Virus record (IMG/VR): IMGVR_UViG_3300006925_000010
Coordinates: 1 to 64,000 of that record
Source of the DNA: a virus
Direction: 5' to 3' (one strand)
DNA length: 64,000 nucleotides
Positions 2,227 to 64,000 of this stretch are shown here, one piece after another (within the stretch, counting starts at the first letter, position 1; every line of letters starts with the position of its first letter). The notes below the pieces were generated by a model. It saw only the letters and a list, made by a program, of their open reading frames with translations. It searched no databases and was not told the origin of the DNA. The position numbers and the translations under genes are program-made.

Positions 2227-3087
2227 ATGGCAAATAAGAAAAGTAATAGCCCTTTAGCAGGGTTCTACAGAGCGCCTAAGATGTATACGCAAATACCTAC
2301 CGGTGGAAAATACTATGATGAGAAAATCATCGATTGGCCAACAACTGACGAATTGCCTGTTTTTCCTATGACTGCAAAAGACGAAATGATTATGAAGAAT
2401 CCTGATGCTTTGCTGAACGGTGAAGCAGTTGCACAGATTCTAAGTAGTTGTGTTCCTTGCATCAAAGCGCCAAGAAAAATGGTAAGCAACGATGTTGACA
2501 CATTGTTAATTGCTATCCAAGGTGCTACTTACGGCGATGAAATCAAAGTAACTGCAAACTGCCCTAAGTGTGAGCATGAGAATACTGGTGAAGCCAGTGT
2601 AGAAGATTGCTTAGATAGAATGGCAGTTGTTTCAGAGAATTATACATTCGAAACAACCCAAGGCCTATCAATTGATGTTAAGCCGTTCTTGTATGAAAAC
2701 ACAATACAAGCCGGTCTTGCTAATTTTAAATCAACAAGAAGTTTACAAGCACTACAAAAAGTAGAAGACGAAGAAGCTCAATTAAAAGCATTCAACGAAA
2801 ACTTTATGACTATTGCCGGTCTGAACTTTCAACTTGTAGTAGATAGTGTAAACAGCATCAGTGGAACTTCGCCCGACGGTGAAGCCTTTCTTGTTACCGA
2901 TGAAGAGAGTATTCAAGAATTCTTAGAAAACTGTGAGGCTTCTATAGGCACAGCAATCGAAGAAAAGATTGGAGAAATTAATAAAATAGGAATCAATAAA
3001 AAGTTTAGTTTACAATGTGAGGAATGCGAAGAAGTTTACGAGACTGAAATTGCATTTGATCCTGTAAATTTTTCCACGGCTTCTTAG
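2227..3087 (+). CDS. 26: Baseplate hub protein gp26 (T4_baseplate family)
   Basis: The protein contains the gp26-type block with PTGGKYY, PMTAKDE, NPDALLNGEA and SCVP near residues 22-80, typical of T4-like gp26. Two CXXC pairs, C112/C115 (CPKC) and C264/C267 (CEEC), probably bind a zinc ion. It is longer (286 aa) than T4 gp26 (208 aa). gp26 takes part in baseplate hub assembly; the pairing with gp51 next to the tape measure gene resembles the tape-measure chaperone pairs (lambda gpG/gpGT type), which is an inference. The gene has a late octamer 64 nt upstream and a GGAG ribosome site. Its 3' end carries a slippery heptamer that opens the gp51 frame. Confidence 0.88.
   Translation: MANKKSNSPLAGFYRAPKMYTQIPTGGKYYDEKIIDWPTTDELPVFPMTAKDEMIMKNPDALLNGEAVAQILSSCVPCIKAPRKMVSNDVDTLLIAIQGATYGDEIKVTANCPKCEHENTGEASVEDCLDRMAVVSENYTFETTQGLSIDVKPFLYENTIQAGLANFKSTRSLQALQKVEDEEAQLKAFNENFMTIAGLNFQLVVDSVNSISGTSPDGEAFLVTDEESIQEFLENCEASIGTAIEEKIGEINKIGINKKFSLQCEECEEVYETEIAFDPVNFSTAS
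3066..3072 (+). promoter_or_regulatory. Programmed -1 frameshift site, A AAT TTT
   Basis: In the gp26 frame the bases read GTA AAT TTT TCC. A AAT TTT fits the X XXY YYZ rule for tandem -1 slippage. The -1 frame opens only after a TGA at 3057-3059 and the zero-frame stop is at 3085-3087, so the heptamer sits inside the short window where a shift is productive. No convincing downstream stimulatory hairpin was found by eye. Confidence 0.7.
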
Positions 3088-3305
3088 CAAACGCAAAACC
3101 AGAGGCTATTCTTGAGTTAATTAACAGACTCCGCAAAGAAGCCGATATCCTAGAAAAAAGCCTAATAGAAATCGCAGTATATAGTGGTGGCAGTATTTCT
3201 TGGCTAGAAACTCAGATGATGTCTTTATCAGAAAGAGCAATCGCAGTAGAAGTAATTAACAAGTACAACAAAATCAAGTCTGGCAATCTCACAGACGAAT
3301 TTTAA
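3072..3305 (+). CDS. 51: gp51-like baseplate hub assembly segment, made as gp26-gp51 frameshift fusion
   Basis: After a -1 slip at 3066-3072 the frame continues for 77 codons from TTC at 3072 to TAA at 3303. The product would extend gp26 with FHGFLANAKPEAILELINRL and then a helical region containing SISWLETQMMSLSERA, ending NLTDEF. There is no ATG, GTG or TTG in this frame between the upstream TGA (3057) and the internal ATG pair in the middle of the conserved segment, so independent initiation would lose half the domain. T4 has separate genes 26 and 51 in this order; gp51 is a hub assembly factor. The call to gp51 rests on position, length and helical character. The fusion is an inference from frame and slippery site. 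Confidence 0.65.
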   Translation, partial: FHGFLANAKPEAILELINRLRKEADILEKSLIEIAVYSGGSISWLETQMMSLSERAIAVEVINKYNKIKSGNLTDEF

Positions 3306-3325
3306 TAGATAATCCTAACAATAGT

Positions 3326-3346
3326 AAGAGACACTTCGTGTCTTTT
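3326..3346 (+). terminator. Rho-independent terminator-like hairpin after gp26/gp51
   Basis: AAGAGACAC, loop TTC, GTGTCTTTT forms a nine-pair stem (one G-U) starting 21 nt after the gp51 stop. The U-run forms part of the 3' arm. A second, competing structure pairs 3344-3351 with 3389-3396 and is followed by six T; the two share bases 3344-3346, so only one can form fully. Confidence 0.6.
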
Positions 3347-3866
3347 CAATCTACATTCGTTCGTTCGTTTCACTCACCTCACTCACTTGATTGAAACTTT
3401 TTTAAAAAGTAATTATTAAGTAACATCGATTTCATGCAGATATCGAGGTCATATGAAGCCTACCTAAGTGGCTCCATATAAAAAATCGACCTCATGCGAG
3501 TATGCGTCGGACGTAAACGAAGACAGGTATTTATGTTTTGCACTTTGTTTGGCTCTGACCTTACCACACCTGTGTCGATTTTTAATTCCAACTCGCTTCA
3601 AGATGGAAATACAAAGTATTGCAATAACTTTTCAACTATTTAGACTTAACAAATGTTTCTTACCATTGGGTAGACATTTTAGCATCCGGCATCACCGGGT
3701 AGTGTTAAGAATCGCATAACAACCAATGCATAGGCTTACCATCTCACATCAGAATGGATTTCGCAACGGAATAATAGTTGGCCCGTCAACCGTGTGTGTT
3801 GTTTGTATGTTTTAAGAGTTAGACTTTGTGTCTGAGAATGCCATGTTTGTATTGTTCAACTAATAG
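3347..3866. other. 560-bp convergent intergenic region with strong hairpin, no convincing gene
   Basis: This is the only long stretch without a supported gene; it lies between the ends of gp26/gp51 (plus) and the GIY-YIG gene (minus). It holds three TTCG units at 3357-3368, a 15-nt palindrome at 3396-3410, and a strong hairpin at 3445-3493: outer stem GAGGTC/GACCTC, inner stem ATATGAAGCC/GGCTCCATAT with one mismatch, loop TACCTAAGT and an A-rich bulge. A degenerate direct repeat starts at ATCGATTTCATGC (3426) and ATCGACCTCATGC (3485). The longest open frame (3468-3719) has no ribosome site and an unphage-like Cys/Leu/His-rich sequence. A non-coding RNA or decayed insert is possible. Confidence 0.45.
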
Positions 3867-4289
3867 TTATCGGTCTTTCAATCCTTCACGTAAGATTTTT
3901 GAACCACCTACTCTAACATTGATAATACCATTGTAGTAATCGTCTGTAAGGAGCACTTTTCTATCAAATTGCTCTTTTGCTTCTAAGTAACTTGCAACAC
4001 CTCGGCTGGGGCAATAATGCAAAATTTCTCTTGTAAATTGATCTTCTCCTAGCTCTAAGACATCTGCATTTAGATGATCAGAACTGCCCCAATAGGTTTT
4101 CCAGTCACTTTCTTTGTAACCTCGTCTTTTATTTTTTTTGCCTTTTAAGGGAGGCTTGGTAGTTTTGAACTTAGCAAGTTTCTTACCAACGTACATCATG
4201 CCGTTTTGCTTGTTTGTGATTAGGTATACAAATGCTTCACAATCCTCTGGAAGTGTTTCTACTGTTTTACCGTTAAAAGTCCATTGCAT
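3867..4289 (-). CDS. GIY-YIG-type nuclease-like protein
   Basis: The N-terminal half carries a GIY-YIG signature in the form FVYLITN followed by MYVGKK (about residues 20-38), then PPLKGKK, a basic patch, and SDWKTYWGSS near residues 60-70. A conserved Glu in SYLEAKEQ (about residue 103) fits the catalytic glutamate. Small proteins of this layout are widespread in T4-like phages near gp46 and are usually annotated as Seg-like or putative endonucleases. It follows gp46 with a two-base gap, so it is the last gene of the recombination operon. It could be a free-standing homing nuclease or a fixed DNA-processing enzyme; the operon position favours the latter. Confidence 0.75.
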   Translation of the reverse strand: MQWTFNGKTVETLPEDCEAFVYLITNKQNGMMYVGKKLAKFKTTKPPLKGKKNKRRGYKESDWKTYWGSSDHLNADVLELGEDQFTREILHYCPSRGVASYLEAKEQFDRKVLLTDDYYNGIINVRVGGSKILREGLKDR

Positions 4290-60701: not shown

Positions 60702-60721
60702 AGTGGGGGTTCGCCCCCACT
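60702..60721 (+). terminator. Strong terminator with TTCG loop after the dehydrogenase
   Basis: Stem AGTGGGGG, loop TTCG, CCCCCACT, followed by ATTTT. The stem lies before the start of the first radical SAM gene, so it separates the two groups or limits read-through. Confidence 0.8.
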
Positions 60722-60735
60722 ATTTTAGGAATAGT

Positions 60736-62178
60736 ATGAGTGAACGAATAGAACGAATTGAAGAGATAGACAAGTTACTTACTTCTGAGATAAGCGGGAC
60801 CTTTTGTCTTGCAAAATGGCATCACACTACAATTTATTTACATAGAGGACAGACGCATAGTTGCTATCACCCTAAGCCACATGACATTCCTTTACAAGAA
60901 TTAAAATACGACCCGAGCGTACTACACAACACACCGCAGAAGATTGATGAGCGTATAGAAATGTTTAACGGTGAGAAGCCAAGTGGTTGTCAATACTGTT
61001 GGAACGTTGAAGAACTAGACGAAGGCAAAGGACCAAACGAAGATAAACATGTTAGCGACAGGCATCAAAGGAATTCAAGTATATACACAGAAGATAGACT
61101 AAACGAAATTTTATACAATCCACCAGACTACAAGATTAATCCAGAGTATGTAGAGATTGCATTCAGTAACGAATGTAATTTTAAATGTGGCTACTGTCAC
61201 CCAATGCATAGTAGTTTATATAGACAAGAGATTAAGAAACACGGACCATACAATATGGTTAGCAATCACCAAGCAGACATTGACTGGTTTGACATATACG
61301 AAGAGGACTCGCCTTATGTAGAAGCATGGTGGAAGTGGTGGCCTGAAGTGAGCGAAACGTTAAACATACTTAGGATAACAGGCGGAGAACCAATACTACA
61401 CAAAACAACATGGAAACTATTTGAAGAACTCAGTGAAAACCCTAAGCCTAATATAGAAATTAATATTAATACAAACTTAGGTTATACAAGTAGACGTGTT
61501 GAAAGATTAGTTGATGCTGTTAAAGACTTAACAGAAAATAATAAAATACGTGGCTTTAAAATGTTTAGTTCTATTGACACTTGGGGCAAACGTGCTGAAT
61601 ATATTAGAACAGGTTTAGACATTGAACTTTGGGAAAAGAACCAGGACATATACTTACGTGGTGTTAAAAGTCATATAACACACATGGTAACATTCAATGT
61701 GCTAAGTGTTACAACATTTAAAGAGTACTTGAAAAAAGTATTGGAGTGGCGCAAAACATACGAAGATATAATCCCTAACAACTTAGGTAGTTCACCTGAT
61801 GTTAGAAAGATTAGGTTTGATACTCCTTACTTAAAAGAGCCTCTACAATACGATATGCACATATTACCTAAAGAAGAATTCTTACCATACTTTGATGACA
61901 TATTAGATTTTATTAAAGAGAATATTGTAGAAGATGATCGCACAATGTTTAGTGGATTAGAGTATGAACGTTTTAGACGAGTACGAGATTATTTTGTAAC
62001 TACACAATACGATGATGAAAAGATACGAAGGGGTAGAATAGATTTCTACAAATGGTTTAACGAATACGACAAACGCAGAGACACAAACTTCTTAGAAACT
62101 TTTCCAGAGATGGAAGGCTTTTATAGAATGTGTGAAAAATTGAATGAAGACGACATTCAAATAGTAGATGTAAGTTAA
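60736..62178 (+). CDS. Radical SAM protein 1, N-terminal twitch type
   Basis: Starts MSERIERIEEIDKL at 60736, chosen because an upstream in-frame GTG at 60703 would lie inside the terminator. The N-terminal 100 residues hold Cys at FCLAKW (C24), HSCYHP (C43) and GCQYCW (near 88-91), a twitch-like auxiliary cluster motif. The core has the radical SAM motif C147-X3-C151-X2-C154 (CNFKCGYC) and ITGGEPI near residue 214. The C-terminal half is a TIM-barrel-like body with no further recognised motif. The family is known from phages and marine bacteria with unknown substrate. TAATG overlap with the next gene. Confidence 0.85.
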   Translation: MSERIERIEEIDKLLTSEISGTFCLAKWHHTTIYLHRGQTHSCYHPKPHDIPLQELKYDPSVLHNTPQKIDERIEMFNGEKPSGCQYCWNVEELDEGKGPNEDKHVSDRHQRNSSIYTEDRLNEILYNPPDYKINPEYVEIAFSNECNFKCGYCHPMHSSLYRQEIKKHGPYNMVSNHQADIDWFDIYEEDSPYVEAWWKWWPEVSETLNILRITGGEPILHKTTWKLFEELSENPKPNIEININTNLGYTSRRVERLVDAVKDLTENNKIRGFKMFSSIDTWGKRAEYIRTGLDIELWEKNQDIYLRGVKSHITHMVTFNVLSVTTFKEYLKKVLEWRKTYEDIIPNNLGSSPDVRKIRFDTPYLKEPLQYDMHILPKEEFLPYFDDILDFIKENIVEDDRTMFSGLEYERFRRVRDYFVTTQYDDEKIRRGRIDFYKWFNEYDKRRDTNFLETFPEMEGFYRMCEKLNEDDIQIVDVS

Positions 62179-63464
62179 TGGCTAGAAAAATACCAGTACA
62201 TAATATTACAGCAGACGAGGCTCTTAGTAATAATTCTTTTTGCATGTTACCTTTTGTACACATGCACATAACACCTGATGGCAAGCCATTACCTTGTTGT
62301 ATAGGAAACATGAAGTACTCTCATTCAATAGGCAGAAAAAATCTATCTATAGAAGAAATGGTTAATTCAGATTTTATGAAAAATCTTAGAATGAATATGA
62401 TTAACGGAATTAGGCACGAAGTATGCAGTGGTTGTCATAAGATAGAAGACTCGGGCACTGGTACATATAGTTTTAGAAATACTGCTAATGAGAAGTACAA
62501 GAAACATGCGCCAAGAGTATTAAGACGAACAACCAAAGACGGACACTTAGCAGACTTTAAAATGAGATACTTTGATATTAGACTCAGCCATGTTTGTAAT
62601 ATGAAGTGTCGAACATGTAATAGTGGTTACAGTAGTTTATGGGAAGCCGAAGATAAGAAGCAAGGCATTAACATAACGTTTGACATGATGCATGATCGTA
62701 ATCCAACAACGTTCGAAGAAATACTAGAGCATGTACCTTACATGGAAGAATGTTACTTTGCAGGTGGTGAACCAATGGTTGACGACTACCATTACTACCT
62801 ACTAGAAGCATTAATAGACCAAGGACGAACAGATGTAAGACTTAGTTACAATACCAATTTGAGTAGACTAAAGTTTAAAAACTACAATGTTTTAGAGTTG
62901 TGGGAGAAGTTTGATCACCCAGTAAATGTTTATAGCAGTATAGACCATTGTGAAGAACGAGCAGAATATATTAGAAATGGCACTAAGTGGAATGATATCG
63001 AAACAAATATTAAAAGGCTATTGCTGGAACCAAATGTAAATTTGCAAATTAGTTCTACTGTGAGTATGTTAAACTATGTAACACTAGAGCAGTTTTTTAA
63101 GAAGATGTTAACAACAGGTCTTATGCCTGGTGGTGATTGGCAATTAAATCCTGTATCAAATCCCGAGTGGATAAGTGTATTTAACTTGCCACAAGAGATG
63201 AAAGATGCAGGTAGGCAAGGCATTAATAATATTATTGAGTATCTTACTAGCAAAGACAAACTAGTTAGAACATATAAAAAGAGAAACTATAATTTTGAAC
63301 ATACTATAAACAATATTAAATCGTTTCCTGACTTAGTAGACAGCAGTGGTGTAGACTTTAATGATGTCCGCCCAGAGTTTGTATGTGAAACTAGAAGACT
63401 TGACCAGTTACGCAAAGAAACATTTGTTGAGGTGTTTCCTGAACTGAGGACTATGTATGAGTGA
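62178..63464 (+). CDS. Radical SAM protein 2, N-terminal twitch type
   Basis: A 428-aa protein: FCMLPFVHMHITPDG (C22), PLPCC (about residues 39-40) and CSGCHK (about 79-82) form the N-terminal auxiliary cluster; the radical SAM motif is C140-X3-C144-X2-C147 (CNMKCRTC). GGEPM starts at residue 196. The N-terminal block FCMLPF...PCC resembles the SPASM/twitch core that in other enzymes stands at the C-terminus, so this is the inverted arrangement. It overlaps both neighbours and is surely co-translated with them. Confidence 0.88.
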   Translation: MARKIPVHNITADEALSNNSFCMLPFVHMHITPDGKPLPCCIGNMKYSHSIGRKNLSIEEMVNSDFMKNLRMNMINGIRHEVCSGCHKIEDSGTGTYSFRNTANEKYKKHAPRVLRRTTKDGHLADFKMRYFDIRLSHVCNMKCRTCNSGYSSLWEAEDKKQGINITFDMMHDRNPTTFEEILEHVPYMEECYFAGGEPMVDDYHYYLLEALIDQGRTDVRLSYNTNLSRLKFKNYNVLELWEKFDHPVNVYSSIDHCEERAEYIRNGTKWNDIETNIKRLLLEPNVNLQISSTVSMLNYVTLEQFFKKMLTTGLMPGGDWQLNPVSNPEWISVFNLPQEMKDAGRQGINNIIEYLTSKDKLVRTYKKRNYNFEHTINNIKSFPDLVDSSGVDFNDVRPEFVCETRRLDQLRKETFVEVFPELRTMYE

Positions 63465-64000
63465 TTATATAGACTTACACGACATAGACAAAGAACACTT
63501 GCTAACAGAAAGTAAAACATTTTGTATGTTTCCGTGGATACACTTAAATGCAACACCCAAGGGGGATATCTATCCTTGCTGTAGTAATGACTACACGAAT
63601 CCAATTGGTAATGCAAGAGACATGTCTCTTAAAGAAGCATTTAACACAGACTATATGAAAGAGTTAAGACTAGCAATGTTACAGGATAAAAAATCTGATA
63701 TATGTAATTTTTGTTATAGTCACGAAAAAGCAAGTCCACATAGTTTTAGAACATATAGCATGGATAACTTTTCAGACTCGTTTGATGACGTATTAGCAAT
63801 GACACACAAAGACGGTACAGTTGATGAGCTAAACATGAAATATTTTGATATTAGGTTTAGTAATATATGTAATTTTAAATGTCGTAGTTGCGGTACAGAG
63901 TTTAGTAGCCAATGGGCATTAGAAGATAAAAAAACATATAACCCAGATGGGCCTGTTATTATACACGTTGACGATGATAAAGGAACTGTACTGAAAGAAA
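63457..64000 (+). CDS. Radical SAM protein 3, N-terminal twitch type, partial (3' end outside window)
   Basis: Starts MSDYIDLHDIDKEHL, eight bases before the end of the preceding gene. Visible: FCMFPWIHLNATPKG, IYPCC and CNFCYSH (N-terminal auxiliary cluster) and the radical SAM motif C138-X3-C142-X2-C145 (CNFKCRSC) in 181 codons before the edge. It is more similar in its front part to protein 2 than to protein 1. Whether the gene is intact beyond the window cannot be said. Confidence 0.85.
   Translation, partial: MSDYIDLHDIDKEHLLTESKTFCMFPWIHLNATPKGDIYPCCSNDYTNPIGNARDMSLKEAFNTDYMKELRLAMLQDKKSDICNFCYSHEKASPHSFRTYSMDNFSDSFDDVLAMTHKDGTVDELNMKYFDIRFSNICNFKCRSCGTEFSSQWALEDKKTYNPDGPVIIHVDDDKGTVLKE

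Follow-up and report, generated by a model that had tools for sequence, protein, structure and literature searches.

The window analysed here is a stretch of 64,000 nucleotides of DNA from a marine virus of bacteria. Its plus strand carries a gp26-like gene at positions 2227-3087, which encodes a protein of 286 amino acids (the short form, TAC-N) and ends at the TAG stop codon 3085-3087. The protein matches the Pfam family PF12322, T4_baseplate, with an E value of 4.5e-14 and 53.1 bits against a cut-off of 24.5, as well as phrog_150 (baseplate hub; E 2.4e-16), and the profile of the marine gp26 clade is homologous to T4-like gp26 (probability 96.3, E 1.6e-9). On the same strand, the gp51 frame occupies positions 3060-3305, in -1 relative to gp26, and comprises 81 codons plus a stop codon at 3303-3305. 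It is opened by the TGA at 3057-3059 and shares with gp26, which is closed by its TAG, an overlap of 28 nucleotides (3060-3087, plus strand). Inside this overlap and in the phase of the upstream gene lies a slippery heptamer of the form X XXY YYZ, namely A AAT TTT at 3066-3072 on the plus strand, whose AAT and TTT are codons of gp26. A -1 join at this site would leave positions 3072-3305 of the plus strand as the translated part of the gp51 frame (77 codons and a stop, beginning FHGFLANAK), so that the coding sequence of the putative long form, TAC-NC, would span 2227-3305 and by arithmetic yield 282 + 77 = 359 amino acids. A preliminary description of this DNA had placed the join at this heptamer within the 28-base overlap, and had reported that the gp51 frame holds no start codon between the TGA at 3057 and an internal ATG pair. 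Position and phase of the join proved exact, the coordinates hold, and the other sequence facts that it gave for the window were correct as well. No ATG, GTG or TTG occurs in the frame ahead of this pair (3216 and 3219), and a start there would drop more than half of the conserved gp51 domain.

On the minus strand, a divergent neighbouring gene at 1-2127, cut by the end of the record, encodes a protein without a Pfam or PHROG match. This protein shows weak similarity to a structural protein encoded at the same place in phage PA5oct (BLASTP, 23% identity over 315 columns, E 1e-5 in a single comparison), and for the gene at the corresponding place in RaK2 one annotator's note reads similar to tape measure protein. 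On these similarities the neighbour may encode the tape measure protein. The preliminary description had drawn support for a chaperone function from an adjacent tape measure gene; this adds little, because the gene lies on the opposite strand and its identification is weak. Downstream of the gp51 stop codon, an element of about 80 nucleotides (3324-3405) contains the hairpin AAGACACTTCGTGTCTT, followed by TTTCAATC and GATTGAAA around TTCG, and CACTCAC repeats. Many of the more distant relatives share it at about 72-85% conservation, some of them with the element and gp51 on different strands, and it is possibly a terminator between convergent genes. The whole intergenic stretch of 561 nucleotides (3306-3866) is 83-98% conserved in near relatives, has no Rfam match at the gathering score, and gives fold z values of -1.83 on the plus and -1.71 on the minus strand. 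The best PHROG of the following open reading frame (3867-4289) bears the label NAD synthetase, and families of homing endonucleases rank after it; since the frame reads, in our view, like a GIY-YIG protein, the NAD synthetase label looks doubtful. Further along the window, one frame stays open for 7162 codons (22159-43647), and at 60703-63999 there are three successive frames with CxxxCxxC motifs, which by this motif resemble radical SAM proteins.

The modelled gp26 protein is folded (pLDDT 82.3) with a low-confidence tail from residue 279 on, which in the model is where the gp51 extension would attach, and the gp51 domain is predicted to form four helices (pLDDT 86.2). Comparison of the gp26 model with the PDB by Foldseek gave nothing at E <=0.001 (best E 0.2), and profiles of gp26 searched against the sequences of solved structures reached best E values of 0.26 and 0.015, both with unrelated proteins; neither route gave a significant match of gp26 to a known fold. 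Strong Foldseek matches were found to predicted viral proteins, some of them named baseplate or baseplate hub, and VIA-align returned partial matches with Z up to 6.0, which according to the tool's own warning may mean a common arrangement only.

Relatives of the locus were collected from viral contigs. Two protein scans yielded 41 and 78 loci, with several contigs common to both, and in all 121 entries with a gp51 match from these scans the gp51 frame lies in -1 and overlaps the gp26 frame. The entries include the window, its own record and Salicola phage SCTP-2, a few being cut by contig ends, and reduce to 83 distinct stretches and then to 57 non-redundant sequences (56 of the marine clade, below 90% amino acid identity, plus SCTP-2). 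With two further scans the full census reached 304 loci, named phages being excluded and counted separately: of 320 loci inspected, gp26 was matched in 307 and the match extended to residue 260 in 306, and two were dropped in which the -1 frame ran off the contig. In one locus, L040, gp26 is present and the junction is absent at the contig end. The 304 loci hold 122 distinct junctions by a long key, which contig ends can split, and 107 by a shorter key.

Every one of these 107 junctions carries at least one slippery heptamer in phase. A AAT TTT is in phase in 106 of them (121 of 122 by the long key) and T TTT TTC/T in 96; in the remaining 11 the sequence there is TTTTTCC, each time with A AAT TTT retained, the single junction without A AAT TTT (L324) keeps T TTT TTC, and none lacks both. 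The -1 frame is open for 62-96 codons beyond the gp26 stop in all 304 loci. Two loci, L290 and L162, lack the usual gp26 stop and end about 27 nucleotides further on, with a short form about 9 residues longer; their heptamer is still in phase, and T TTT TTC ends 39 nucleotides before the end of the stop codon, where in most junctions the distance is 12. Since three of the four scans used patterns that touch the junction, one of them requiring the run AAATTTTT itself, conservation of the heptamers was also counted in the junction-independent scan, which used peptides from the interior of gp26 only. Among its 40 loci (32 distinct), A AAT TTT was found in 32 of 32 and T TTT TTC in 25 of 32 distinct junctions. 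To explain the distribution of TTTTTCC on the gp26 tree, no fewer than three changes (gains or losses) are required; as these may be one gain and two losses, independent origins of this state are not claimed.

At the codon level, GTA, AAT and TTT are identical in all 56 non-redundant marine-clade junctions, in agreement with the expectation of the preliminary description that the slippery bases would be conserved when the junction was aligned among related phages. From the codon usage of gp26, this heptamer would be predicted for V-N-F in about 14% of cases and the other heptamer for N-F-F in 36%. The constancy of GTA is part of the heptamer signal, because the heptamer begins with the third base of this codon. 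CCT precedes GTA in 54 of the 56 sequences; TTC is used in 48 of 48 where phenylalanine is kept, and TCC stands in the remaining 8. Mean codon sharing over the last ten gp26 codons is 0.86, where 0.45 is expected, in comparison with 0.53 (expected 0.49) over 23 other conserved gp26 codons. Two of these 23 columns reach 0.83 and 0.86, so that high codon sharing alone is not unique to the slip site, and the codons past the slip are also limited in change because they are read in two frames. Conservation at the junction is one of nucleotides and not of the protein alone, and exceeds chance. Beyond the junction, the -1 frame evolves as a protein, since differences in 222 pairs with >=60% identity concentrate at third codon positions (4309, 2806 and 8331 at positions 1, 2 and 3). 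The gp51-frame protein of the window is 33-76% identical in 16 relatives.

The junction was also inspected in 21 named phages, comprising jumbo, cyanobacterial and other T4-like phages. In 18 of them T TTT TTC/T is in phase at the same place and the -1 frame is open for 53-74 codons past the stop: SCTP-2, Phosso, PA5oct, Atu_ph07, 121Q, Vibrio 2.275.O, RaK2, GAP32, Sf-FS3, S-SM1, MED4-213, ACG-2014f, S-CAM8, pf16, IC12, phiAS5, BUCT608 and Va3. Within this wider family the window and its near relatives stand out, since T TTT TTC is missing from them and A AAT TTT is retained. A canonical heptamer is absent from the other three, Vibrio K355 (L140), EP75 (L142) and Cygsa01 (L132), in which the -1 frame is still open for 52-57 codons past the stop. 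In K355 and Cygsa01 an ATG overlaps the gp26 stop (TAATG), each of the three genomes has one PF12322 copy, and these phages possibly represent a third route to the extension domain.

In T4 itself, genes 26 and 51 are separate and divergent. At the place of the junction T4 gp26 reads GAG TTC TTT GAG, with the T run broken and the -1 frame closed. T4 gp51 is a second PF12322 protein (residues 1-201, E 3.9e-52) that aligns with gp26 at 20% identity over 161 columns (E 2e-6, single comparison). At the C-terminal end (147-246) it matches phrog_634 as well as the short gp51 known from cyanophages and others (probability 97.1, E 5.7e-11). By these comparisons T4 gp51 is a paralogue of gp26 that contains the extra domain, all in a single frame. 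The gp51-frame protein of the window has no phrog_634 and no Pfam match, and is not directly assigned to either. The marine gp51 domain matches T4 gp51 weakly (hhalign probability 34-41, E 3e-4 to 4e-4, over 33-34 C-terminal columns) and the jumbo-phage set with a probability of 99.3, the latter set giving only low probabilities with the T4-like (39) and the T4 set (22). The link between marine and T4 gp51 would thus run, weakly, through gene position and the jumbo-phage set.

The number of PF12322 copies follows these arrangements. Two are present in five of five phages with a T4-like gp51 or gp26 (T4, Aeromonas 31, RB43, Proteus phiP4-3 and an Acinetobacter phage), the four other than T4 having been picked for a match to T4 gp51 or gp26. 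One copy was found in 20 of the 21 named single-locus phages, including Va3 and phiAS5, which are also listed as Straboviridae; SCTP-2, whose gp26 was found by tblastn, has none over the threshold. The 339,794-base marine record of locus L091 has one copy, as does the 79,570-base record of the window, which may be incomplete. With two copies in these five and one in single-locus phages, the role of the frameshift can be taken over by a pair of genes. The earlier proposal that gp26 and gp26-gp51 act as the T4-like equivalent of the lambda G/GT pair is well supported by sequence for the marine locus, but T4 itself uses two divergent genes.

Other origins of the gp51 product were weighed against programmed frameshifting. 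One alternative is that gp51 is a separate gene, translated by coupling or from a non-standard start near the gp26 stop, and in part of the family start codons are at hand. An ATG of the -1 frame lies within 6 nucleotides of the gp26 stop in 10 of the 21 named phages (Phosso, Atu_ph07, 121Q, Sf-FS3, S-SM1, ACG-2014f, BUCT608, Va3, K355 and Cygsa01) and is used by the public record in eight of these, all except Atu_ph07 and K355, so that a separate gp51 start is possible in those ten. Among the 122 marine junctions, 25 have some start codon between the opening of the frame and about +45, of which 16 are a GTG at +23. Against this, no start was found over that interval in the other 97 or in the window before 3216, the RaK2 frame has none until 69 nucleotides past the stop, and the PA5oct frame has no ATG, GTG or TTG anywhere. 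Moreover, a separate gene would not need a frozen heptamer, and we consider this explanation improbable. The preliminary description had taken an independent gp51 start in relatives as evidence against a fusion; the window, most marine junctions and PA5oct favour the fusion, and the ten named phages with an ATG near the stop leave room for a separate start. The lack of a usable independent start holds in the window and is not a rule of the wider family.

The site is also a homopolymer run, and slippage of RNA polymerase on A3T5 could give a mixed mRNA population. The window has no more than T5, however, and the heptamer-bearing phages seen have T5-T7, where runs known to cause transcriptional slippage are longer. 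What is kept is the in-phase heptamer and not the length of the run, the 11 T5 variants among the 107 junctions all retaining A AAT TTT, which makes polymerase slippage very improbable, more so than a separate gene. Barely credible is a frame split by sequencing or assembly error, or a gp51 frame that is a decaying remnant. Beyond the T run nothing speaks for it; the same arrangement occurs in 107 of 107 distinct junctions and in isolated phages, and the excess of third-position substitutions in the -1 frame does not fit a remnant. A sequencing error in the T run, named earlier as a possible refutation of the frameshift, is therefore untenable.

Programmed -1 frameshifting very probably yields both a short (gp26) and a long (gp26-gp51, 359 amino acids) tail assembly chaperone, as the preliminary description had proposed; conserved heptamers, frozen codons and a protein-like -1 frame lend this good support. 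Most ribosomes would read gp26 through to the TAG at 3085-3087 and release the short form. In a smaller share of them, tRNA-Asn paired to AAT and tRNA-Phe paired to TTT (3067-3072) would slip simultaneously one base back onto AAA TTT, and translation would go on with TTC CAC GGC and end at 3305, giving the 359-residue form with the helical gp51 domain as its C-terminal extension. In the window's protein the lysine after the junction is followed by proline, and the long FSLQCEECEEVYETEIAFDPVNFFHGFLANAKPEAILELINR would be expected from trypsin. Together, the short and long forms would bind the tape measure protein and bring in subunits of the tail tube. We infer the occurrence and rate of slippage, the tape measure partner and the chaperone role, the last because of a proposal reportedly made for T4-like phages in 2022 by Vladimirov and others.

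Stimulators of frameshifting were sought on both sides of the site. No stable RNA structure was found 3' of it by fold z in 57 sequences at 40, 60, 80 and 110 nucleotides (mean z -0.37, -0.84, -0.89 and -0.63, with at most a fraction of 0.14 of the sequences under -2). The window's own values range from 0.90 to -0.71, and a downstream RNA structure is unsupported there as a stimulator. Inspection of the window by eye showed no Shine-Dalgarno-like sequence within 20 nucleotides upstream of the site. Known frameshift stimulators were thus not identified by either approach.

In the marine clade A AAT TTT lies inside A AAT TTT TTC, which forms two overlapping in-phase heptamers, and a slip on either would give the same fusion protein. 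It is conceivable, at somewhat short of an even chance, that this doubling provides redundancy, in that either heptamer could be lost and not both, and that T TTT TTC was handed over to A AAT TTT with the product unchanged; together with the duplicated genes of T4 and the arrangement of K355 and Cygsa01, one gene family would then have at least three routes to the long chaperone or its extra domain.

Comparison with known systems would place the locus among the frameshifted tail chaperones. In phage lambda, the tape measure protein is held by gpG and gpGT, which also bring in the tail tube subunits, the slippery site is G GGA AAG, and the tape measure gene lies downstream of G/GT on the same strand. 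What the marine locus would share with lambda is a tape measure chaperone made in a short form and, by frameshifting, in a long form with the same N-terminal part, and this comparison is well supported by sequence; its nearby candidate tape measure gene is divergent and of weak similarity. With T4 it shares a homologous gp26 and the combination of a short protein and a longer one with an extra C-terminal domain, whereas in T4 the two genes are divergent, the frameshift site is absent and gp51 is in one frame. T4 gp26 and gp51 are listed as hub assembly chaperones, the function of gp51 being given as unknown. Some T4-like phages have a short gene beside a longer gene that is a fusion, according to one report (PMC10885494). 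For the tail assembly chaperone of Pakpunavirus Adele, another paper deduces a -1 frameshift on the same basis as here, namely a -1 frame that is always open and a T-rich motif that does not vary, the motif there being GTTTTT in Vandenendeviridae (PMC12846349). Among open-licence PubMed Central papers, none on this marine clade was found.

That all marine relatives examined keep a frameshift site lends support to the 2022 view of gp26/gp51 as the T4-type tail assembly chaperones, and the family offers a natural series in which short and long forms come from one heptamer, from another heptamer, or from two genes. It also corrects annotation, as the -1 frame after gp26 is unannotated in the records of PA5oct (L124), RaK2 (L146) and S-CAM8 (L137). 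Vladimirov, Gautam and Davidson are said to have proposed in 2022 (Virology 566:9-15) the TAC-N/TAC-NC tail assembly chaperones of T4-like phages, with a gp26-like short form, a long form made by -1 slippage on a T run, and T4 26 and 51 as separate genes, a scheme with which the present reading agrees. Frameshifting in T4-like phages had therefore already been proposed; to this the present analysis adds an uncultured marine clade with jumbo phages as relatives, a census of its junctions, and a doubled slippery site whose second heptamer, A AAT TTT, is the sole one left in the window.
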